Origin: Bifidobacterium apousia | GTDB lineage: Bacteria; Actinomycetota; Actinomycetes; Actinomycetales; Bifidobacteriaceae | Assembly (NCBI RefSeq): GCF_007559275.1 | Contig: NZ_VMHK01000001.1 | Location: 434,001 to 498,000, forward strand | DNA: 64,000 nucleotides | Direction of reading: 5' to 3' | Shown here: one piece after another, positions 12,530 through 14,945 of the stretch | Numbering within the stretch: position 1 is the stretch's first letter | Layout of the letters: the number at the start of each line of letters is the position of its first letter | Translations under genes and position numbers: made by a program | The notes under the pieces: model-generated | The model's database searches: none | The model's input: the letters and a program-made list of their open reading frames with translations, nothing else | What the model was told of the DNA's origin: nothing

Positions 12530-12572
12530 CCGTCCCTGCTGTTGTATGGAATGTCACAGCGGGGACGGTTTT
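12530..12572 (+). terminator. Terminator after the hisC-like gene
   Basis: CCGTCCCTGCTGT (12530-12542) pairs with ACAGCGGGGACGG (12556-12568) and is followed by TTTT, a good intrinsic terminator (one mismatch in the stem). Confidence 0.8.
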
Positions 12573-12601
12573 GCCCCTGTGAACTTGTGTCGTCTTGGAT
12601 A

Positions 12602-12649
12602 AACCTATATATTGTGGTTGGCTGGCCAAGTCAATCCAATATATAGTGT
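12602..12649 (+). promoter_or_regulatory. Pair of NrdR boxes over the nrdI-nrdF promoter
   Basis: Two copies of the NrdR box (core CwAtATaTwGtG) occur: CTATATATTGTG centred in 12602-12617 and CAATATATAGTG in 12634-12649, with centres 32 bases apart, the usual three-turn spacing. A promoter fits between them: TTGGCT at 12618-12623 and TATATA at 12640-12645, 16 bases apart, the second box covering the -10. NrdR is the ATP/dATP-sensing repressor of nrd genes. Confidence 0.9.
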
Positions 12650-12671
12650 TTACCAAGGAGCAGCAGTCTCT

Positions 12672-13160
12672 ATGTCCTTAGCAGATGTGGATCGGCACGA
12701 TCCTCCCGATGGTGCCTCCAGGCTGGTGTATTTCTCCAGCGTCTCCAACAACACCCACCGCTTTGTGCAGCGGCTGGGCGTGGAGGAGCCTCTCCGCATC
12801 CCCCTGTACGAGCGGCGCCAGCCCATGCTCGTCATGGATGCGCCCTACCTTCTGCTGGTGCCCACCTATGGCGGCGGGTCAGCCAAGGGGGCCGTGCCCA
12901 AACAGGTCATCCACTTCCTGAACAATCCGGTCAACCGCGGGCTGATCCGCGGGGTCATCACCTCGGGCAACCGGAACTTCGGCAGCGCCTATTGCGCGGC
13001 CGGACCGCTGATAGCCCACCGGTGCGGCGTCCCTGAGCTCTATCGCTTCGAGCTGCTGGGCACCGCGGAGGACGTTCGGGCGGTCAGGGCCATTCTGGCC
13101 GGAATGGGAGTGCAGCTCCAGCAGCAGTCGACTGATTCACGAAAGGCGGTTTTGTCATGA
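12672..13160 (+). CDS. nrdI: NrdI flavodoxin, first copy (next to the class Ie-like NrdF)
   Basis: A 162-residue NrdI, the small FMN protein that makes the oxidant used to build the radical in NrdF. Seen are the FMN phosphate loop [25 protein letters not shown] and the isoalloxazine-side loop [13 protein letters not shown]. The start is ATG 12672 behind AAGGAG at 12655-12660; it stands behind two NrdR boxes. The stop overlaps the nrdF start (ATGA), so the two are translationally coupled. A second, clearly different NrdI is encoded at 14397. The pairing suggests this one serves the metal-free-type NrdF, where NrdI is also required (known for class Ie); that assignment is inferred. Confidence 0.93.
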
Positions 13161-14221: not shown

Positions 14222-14258
14222 ACGAATCGGAACCGGTGTGATATTGGGCACAGAAAAC

Positions 14259-14301
14259 CCTAGATATGGTCACCGTTTTCAATATCAACAGCACATATAG
14301 T
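14259..14301 (+). promoter_or_regulatory. Second, degenerate NrdR box pair
   Basis: CCTAGATATGGT (14259-14270) and GCACATATAGTAG (14291-14303) resemble weak NrdR boxes, with centres about 31 bases apart, the spacing expected for a pair. The second holds TATAGT (14296-14301), a possible -10. They lie between nrdF and the second nrdI and would let nrdI-nrdE be expressed separately. Confidence 0.5.
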
Positions 14302-14396
14302 AGTTCAGGCTCGCGCTGGGCGGGTTCTGATCGGTCCGTCCTCAGGGCGGGCATCACCGTCAAGACAGGCTCTGGATGGCCTGATCAGGAGGAAGC

Positions 14397-14894
14397 ATGG
14401 AGCAACAGCAGACCGCCGGAACTGATTCGGAGCTCAGCGCTCCCGAGTTCGCCGCCCAGGGTCAGCGCCTGGGGGCTGTGGTCTACTTCTCATCGGCCTC
14501 GCGCAACACCGCCCGGTTCATCGCCAACTGCCATTTGGATGAGGAGGGGATCGATGTCTTCCGCATCCCTCTGAGGCCCAAGGACCCGCCGCTCAACATT
14601 CGACAGCCCTACATCCTGATCGTCCCCACCTATGGGGGCGGATCGGCCAAGAAGGCGGTCATGCCGCAGATCAAGCGCTTCCTGAACGACCCGGACAACC
14701 GGGCCGGCATCCGCGGGGTCATCGCCTCCGGCAACACCAACTTCGGGGAGGCCTTCTGCATGGCGGGGGACATCATCTCCCGCAAGTGCAATGTGCCCTT
14801 CCTCTACTATTTCGAGCTCATGGGCACCAAGGAGGACCAGGAGAAGGTCCGCCGCGGGGTTGTGGATTTCTTCCGCAACCATCCCGAGTCCTGA
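14397..14894 (+). CDS. nrdI: NrdI flavodoxin, second copy (next to nrdE)
   Basis: A 165-residue NrdI that differs from the copy at 12672 throughout but keeps the same motifs: YFSSASRNTARF for FMN phosphate, [13 protein letters not shown] and IASGNTNFGEAFCMAG. It has a 20-residue polar N-terminal extension. NrdI reacts with oxygen to give the superoxide or peroxide used to form the dimanganese-tyrosyl radical in class Ib NrdF. The ATG follows GGAGGAAGC. It precedes nrdE by 51 bases, so it is likely the classical class Ib partner. No nrdH glutaredoxin gene is found in the locus. Confidence 0.92.
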   Translation: MEQQQTAGTDSELSAPEFAAQGQRLGAVVYFSSASRNTARFIANCHLDEEGIDVFRIPLRPKDPPLNIRQPYILIVPTYGGGSAKKAVMPQIKRFLNDPDNRAGIRGVIASGNTNFGEAFCMAGDIISRKCNVPFLYYFELMGTKEDQEKVRRGVVDFFRNHPES

Positions 14895-14945
14895 GCCAAT
14901 TGCATTACACGTACTATCACCGTAATTTTCATGAAAGGACACCCG

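Follow-up and report, generated by a model that had tools for sequence, protein, structure and literature searches.

Introduction

NrdR sites are the rule at ribonucleotide reductase (RNR) operons. In the described regulons of Streptomyces coelicolor (nrdRJ, nrdAB) and Escherichia coli (nrdHIEF, nrdDG, nrdAB), two boxes about 15–16 bp apart lie over the RNR promoters, and the repressor combines a Zn-ribbon with an ATP-cone (PMC9110341, PMC12051234, PMC12176259). The S. coelicolor protein requires dATP plus ATP or ADP to bind DNA; with ATP alone it is a dodecamer unable to bind DNA, and residues D15 and R17 matter for specific binding (PMC9110341). Binding is best with 15–17 bp between the boxes, the KD being 45 nM for a 15 bp spacer, 28 nM for 16 bp and 1658 nM for 19 bp (PMC12051234). 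For Bifidobacterium longum, NrdR sites are mentioned as ‘data not shown’ at class Ib nrdHIEF and class III nrdDG; these are the RNR clusters named in the passages concerned, and nrdH lies within the operon (PMC6244367).

The class Ie QSK type of RNR is defined in PMC11846895, which reports in vitro ribonucleotide reduction by the DOPA-containing QSK enzyme of Gardnerella. The main text of that paper contains no occurrence of NrdR.

We describe a pair of predicted NrdR boxes ahead of a class Ie nrdI-nrdF unit in Bifidobacterium apousia. In kind this is ordinary, as the B. longum sites already illustrate (PMC6244367). The arrangement resembles the S. coelicolor and E. coli regulons in its two boxes and in the architecture of the repressor, and differs from both in that one target is a class Ie nrdIF unit without an nrdE of its own and that nrdH is a separate target. 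The enzyme resembles the class Ie QSK RNR of Gardnerella vaginalis in three identical substitutions, and the unit resembles nrdIF stretches that seemingly use an nrdE from elsewhere, unlike the single nrdHIEF stretch of Gardnerella (PMC11846895).

A literature search for NrdR together with class Ie or Bifidobacteriaceae, whose scope excluded most subscription papers and RegPrecise, returned no explicit link of NrdR with class Ie QSK units or with a lone nrdH in the genus, and no mosaic nrdI; these three points are possibly new. The one paper that matched both NrdR and class Ie (PMC9531940) does not mention NrdR in its main text and names class Ie only among its references.

The nrd cluster

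The window is the whole stretch of 64,000 nucleotides that was analysed (G000:C6:434001-498000), from a genome of 2.06 Mb. It contains, in order, a hisC-like gene, two boxes, nrdI, nrdF, two weaker boxes, nrdI, nrdE and nrdF. The features are as follows, in window coordinates.

12602–12617, + strand: predicted NrdR box 1 (distal) of the class Ie unit, AACCTATATATTGTGG; matrix score and genome model scan
12634–12649, + strand: predicted NrdR box 2 (proximal) of the class Ie unit, ATCCAATATATAGTGT; matrix score and genome model scan
12672–13160, + strand: nrdI of the class Ie unit (NrdI flavodoxin); TIGR00333 146.5 bits, PF07972
13157–14221, + strand: class Ie nrdF, QSK type (Q133, S193, K227); profile match and alignment
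14257–14272, + strand: predicted NrdR box 1 of the class Ib operon, ACCCTAGATATGGTCA; pair 27.2 bits, model scan
14288–14303, + strand: predicted NrdR box 2 of the class Ib operon, ACAGCACATATAGTAG, after a 15-bp spacer; pair 27.2 bits, model scan
14397–14894, + strand: nrdI of the class Ib operon; TIGR00333 137.9 bits
14946–17141, + strand: nrdE, start placed by eye, with an in-frame ATG at 14931; TIGR04170 1157.5 bits
17312–18307, + strand: class Ib nrdF with the full metal-ligand set; profile match and alignment

The first NrdF has Q133, S193 and K227 where the class Ib NrdF has three glutamates, and retains D102, H136, Y140 and H230. With three metal-ligand glutamates replaced, the radical tyrosine Y140 present and an nrdI adjacent, it has the features of the class Ie QSK type. 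Its best PDB matches, at 607 bits, are 8rag and 8rah, which we take to be the Gardnerella protein. The closest named records among the matches listed, with NrdF 99% identical, are from B. choladohabitans and B. mellis, presumably both honey-bee gut species.

The genome has a single match to the catalytic subunit NrdE, and Pfam detects no ATP-cone in it. Among the five proteins searched with Pfam (NrdE, NrdR, class Ie NrdF and NrdI, and NrdD), an ATP-cone is found in NrdR and the anaerobic NrdD only, so NrdR is likely to be the main dATP sensor for the aerobic enzymes here.

The original prediction named absence of nrdR as a finding that would refute it. One nrdR gene above the curated cut-off is present in this genome, and nrdR passes that cut-off in 27/27 genomes of the genus, this one included. 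The protein has the Zn-ribbon with C3, C6, C31 and C34, the DNA-contact residues D15 and R17, RRRR, and the ATP-cone. It aligns over 147 residues with 7p37, which we assume to be an S. coelicolor-type NrdR.

The box pair

Both boxes were located where the original prediction had placed them ahead of the class Ie nrdI-nrdF, 32 bases apart centre to centre; the cores it gave, CTATATATTGTG and CAATATATAGTG, occupy 12605–12616 and 12637–12648. Each box is 16 bp long, with the conserved C and G ends and AT core expected of an NrdR operator, and a 16 bp spacer separates the two. Half-site symmetry is modest, at 8/16 and 10/16 self-complementary positions. Spacers of 16 bp (class Ie) and 15 bp (class Ib) lie within the 15–17 bp that give integer helix turns, and near the published optimum (PMC12051234). 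The pair sits upstream of RNR genes; its overlap with a promoter is predicted from the two hexamers listed next, which a ribosome binding site follows.

12618–12623, + strand: putative −35 hexamer TTGGCT, in the inter-box spacer; consensus match only, differing in 1/13 close genomes (L109)
12642–12647, + strand: putative −10 hexamer TATAGT, within box 2; consensus match only
12655–12660, + strand: ribosome binding site AAGGAG; sequence reading

The claim that the second box overlaps the likely −10 stands as a consensus match, with TTGGCT and TATAGT 18 bases apart at 12618–12647; taken alone it is no better than chance, as 0.7 such matches are expected in the scanned stretch. Since the box and −10 consensuses also overlap, we regard a −10 inside box 2 as no more than plausible. 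The class Ib pair has the identical TATAGT at the same offset inside its box 2 (14296–14301).

Single boxes do not discriminate. The window has 71 degenerate matches at up to three mismatches versus 104.9 expected, and the whole genome has 20 versus 26 for a reversed control, so there is no enrichment in either. Paired scans were therefore used: the signal is the pairing of boxes, not single boxes. A hand-weighted NrdR box consensus gives the class Ie pair 57 of 62 and the class Ib pair 47, and 30 Mb of simulated first-order Markov sequence has no pair of at least 47.

We then scored pairs with a matrix whose training set came from members of the genus that lack an intact class Ie gene: 56 symmetrised boxes from the promoters of class Ib in 7 genomes and of class III in 9. 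The register is ambiguous in two (L167, L168) of its 16 training pairs. Because the training boxes were first located with the consensus described above, the matrix owes nothing to the class Ie locus but does depend on the motif. In this genome the class Ie pair scores 38.7 bits, the class Ib pair 27.2, the class III pair 26.9 and the nrdH pair 20.9. The maximum in 60 Mb of simulated sequence is 22.6 bits, and the numbers of simulated pairs reaching these four scores are 0, 0, 0 and 1.

Conservation was assessed in 13 close genomes (this one and 12 others), whose promoter stretches are all distinct. Invariant bases make up 31/32 of the boxes, 7/16 of the spacer, 41/70 of the upstream flank (12532–12601) and 18/22 of the leader. 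The boxes are more conserved than flank and spacer together (48/86; Fisher p = 6e-6) or than these with the leader added (p = 5e-5); with such close relatives the alignment columns are partly dependent on one another, and the p values serve as a guide only. Box 1 is identical in 13/13 genomes and box 2 varies at one base (12640) in 1/13; the spacer varies in sequence and is constant in length.

Taken together, the pair ahead of the class Ie nrdI-nrdF is very probably an NrdR operator. By analogy with other bacterial RNRs, the class Ie enzyme is most likely switched off when dNTPs are plentiful. At a high ratio of dATP to ATP, NrdR carrying both nucleotides would bind as a tetramer, with one dimer per box three helix turns apart, and would cover the promoter (−35 in the spacer, −10 in box 2) so that transcription stops. 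As dATP falls, NrdR would form ATP-loaded oligomers and leave the DNA. The original prediction, that a metal-free-type enzyme is under dNTP-pool control, thus gains good support from the sequence, with both ‘metal-free’ and ‘dNTP-pool control’ argued by way of relatives.

Predicted regulon

The original prediction suggested scanning the genome for further boxes, and pairs turned up at the other RNR units. A genome model of 47 positions, built from 30 pairs, was scanned over the 2.06 Mb at E ≤ 10, and 116 first-look candidates were scored. Its six matches fall at four places. Class Ie nrdIF and class Ib nrdIEF are each matched on both strands, and the other two places are class III nrdDG and a lone nrdH. 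The model was built with these sites, so the scan shows that no further site of that strength was found and is not an independent discovery. Since class Ib (1.6 kb downstream), nrdDG and nrdH also have pairs, the class Ie unit is not singled out.

NrdR would accordingly also control class Ib nrdIEF, class III nrdDG and nrdH, and with a common repressor both radical generators that share the single NrdE would answer to one signal. This would place a class Ie (metal-free type) RNR in a common dNTP-feedback circuit with its metal-dependent and anaerobic partners. The set comprises four targets in one small genome and is testable with one purified protein.

The lone nrdH shares a contig with the nrd cluster, some 110 kb away from it, and is preceded by a pair of its own.

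L199:1347-1394 (G000:C6): predicted NrdR pair of nrdH, about 150 bp before the nrdH match at 337477; matrix scan, 20.9 bits

The pairs recur across the 27 genomes of the genus. For class Ie nrdF a pair is present in 18/18, at 32 bp in 16 and at 31 bp in 2. Class Ib has one in 25/25 genomes examined, all at 31 bp; the class Ib promoters of G004 and G005 were left out, the 6 kb fetched containing only nrdF. nrdD has a pair in 27/27 (25 at 31 bp, 2 at 33), as does nrdH (26 at 32 bp, 1 at 31), where the pair is the best of its locus in every genome and the weakest scores 13.7 bits. By hand weights, the lowest scores among these in the relatives, 44–47, belong to the class Ib pairs of the bee clade; 8 simulated pairs in 30 Mb reach 44.

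Autoregulation of nrdR was sought at the 27 nrdR loci, with no sign of it. The best pairs score 42.5, at spacings of 35 and 44 bp, and none reaches 45 by hand weights; S. coelicolor differs in having an nrdRJ target.

In G004 and G005 (L128, L127) the class Ib nrdF has no nrdE or nrdI in the 6 kb fetched (about 5 kb of it upstream), and the operon seems to be split.

A single near-consensus box at G000:C6:603467 (L004), before a frame named by eye as a GNAT-like acetyltransferase, was rejected as chance: it has no partner above −9 bits at 25–40 bp, its best pair reaches 2.4 bits and it is absent from the model scan.

QSK loci outside the genus set

Among 80 loci holding the best listed NrdF relatives, 42 are QSK. 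Two of these, L012 and L013 from the B. choladohabitans and B. mellis records, include the G011 and G019 loci with every base identical and were not counted twice, leaving 40 to be scanned. Among the matches listed, 26/40 have a pair of at least 16 bits at 31–32 bp upstream of nrdF: 8 Bifidobacteriaceae, 4 Streptomyces, 3 Leucobacter, 2 each of Brachybacterium, Actinotignum and Actinomyces, and one each of Micrococcus, Pseudoglutamicibacter, Gulosibacter, Helcobacillus and an Acidimicrobiia assembly. Three Gardnerella loci (L014–L016) also have the pair in the matrix scan. At off-phase spacings (26, 27, 36, 37) 3/40 loci reach 16 bits and downstream of the nrdF start 0/40 do, while simulation at window composition gives 2 such pairs in 20 Mb. 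The 16-bit threshold was set after the scores were seen, and two of the 26 pass it only narrowly (16.2, 16.5).

With this matrix the other 14/40 loci have no pair: 9 Corynebacterium, 4 Brevibacterium and 1 Mycetocola with 262 bases upstream only. The 13 Corynebacterium and Brevibacterium loci argue against NrdR control as a constant feature of class Ie, and these two genera offer a contrast set in which class Ie seems to do without NrdR pairs.

Five of the Corynebacterium loci without a pair (L041, L042, L044, L045, L047; around positions 2250–2285) have in common a palindromic 16-mer that stands alone, TCACCAGATTTGGTGT, close to where the first RNR gene starts. It is possibly another operator or coding sequence.

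A plasmid search returned 108 records at 60–90% identity; among the five matches listed, none covers 80% of the query, and the result was set aside.

Alternative explanations

A possible reading, which we favour less and which is compatible with an NrdR operator, is that the sites are real and bound but NrdR sets only the basal level, while the timing is decided by a different regulator at the class Ie promoter that relays signals of oxygen, superoxide or metal. In B. longum, nrdHIEF and nrdDG go up within 5–20 minutes of exposure to oxygen while nrdR mRNA falls (PMC6244367), and in E. coli the further proteins that bind RNR promoters include Fur, IscR, DnaA, Fnr and H-NS (PMC12176259). The partial conservation of the upstream flank (41/70 at 12532–12601) would also fit. 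Against this, no second operator was noticed in an unsystematic look at the locus, and the most constrained bases are the NrdR boxes themselves.

It is very unlikely that the boxes are relics, an operator without purpose before an inactive class Ie NrdF. Nine of the 27 genomes lack an intact class Ie gene, and one (G017) has only nrdF fragments; yet the class Ie frames are free of stops in the other 18, at 77–100% identity, the QSK residues and Y140 are retained in the aligned loci, and the boxes are under constraint. The Gardnerella QSK enzyme with DOPA is, moreover, active in vitro (PMC11846895).

Chance, or a likeness to promoters within a GC-rich genome, can be dismissed with near certainty as the source of the AT-rich palindromes: single-box counts at or below expectation and a −10 consensus that resembles half a box would suit such an origin, but pair scores far beyond simulated sequence, base conservation at fixed spacing and recurrence at the RNR units of 27 genomes do not.

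Evolution of the class Ie unit

An NrdR operator ahead of the class Ie unit remains the preferred reading, and the two genes behind it appear to differ in origin. In trees of a subset of loci, a 100/99 branch places the class Ie NrdI among actinobacterial NrdI proteins of non-bifidobacterial type, away from the bifidobacterial ones, its exact sister being unsupported (80/47). The class Ie NrdF groups with bifidobacterial QSK NrdF, with 100/99 for the 16-row clade, in a tree where long branches may meet falsely. In two genomes (G013, G014) nrdF(QSK) follows the boxes with no nrdI detected between, and in 13 bee-clade genomes nrdI lies between the boxes and nrdF(QSK). The class Ie nrdI was thus likely acquired horizontally, and the sequences are most simply read as the insertion of a foreign nrdI behind an NrdR operator that was already there. 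Alternatively, other lineages may have lost such an nrdI.

We suggest, tentatively and as a conjecture more likely wrong than right, that the class Ie unit of the bee clade is a patchwork, with a Bifidobacterium promoter and nrdF(QSK) and, inserted between operator and nrdF, an nrdI of actinobacterial but non-bifidobacterial type, kept as a tightly held reserve under the operator that scores highest in the genome (38.7 versus 27.2, 26.9 and 20.9 bits). If so, rising dATP would shut off the metal-free radical generator first, and competition with the class Ib NrdF for the one NrdE would occur only at low dNTPs. In the bee clade (five genomes recomputed of 13) class Ie pairs score 35.1–38.7 bits versus 23.7–27.2 for class Ib, and in G013 the values are 35.7 and 31.4. 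The order is reversed in G015, G023 and G024, with 36.1, 26.2 and 29.6 bits for class Ie versus 45.6, 46.0 and 49.2 for class Ib, and the hand weights agree. These three genomes rule out a stronger class Ie pair as a generality and count against the reserve as a general rule.

In G017 (L130, G017:C14:12505-12938) class Ie nrdF persists in its usual place only as fragments and the class Ib pair is intact. Upstream of the fragments no pair of at least 42 by hand weights is left, in this one case. G006 has a further R2-like frame of 509 aa in two copies near two contig ends (G006:C1:11930-13093 and 2179290-2180453), with about 33–36% identity to NrdF pieces.
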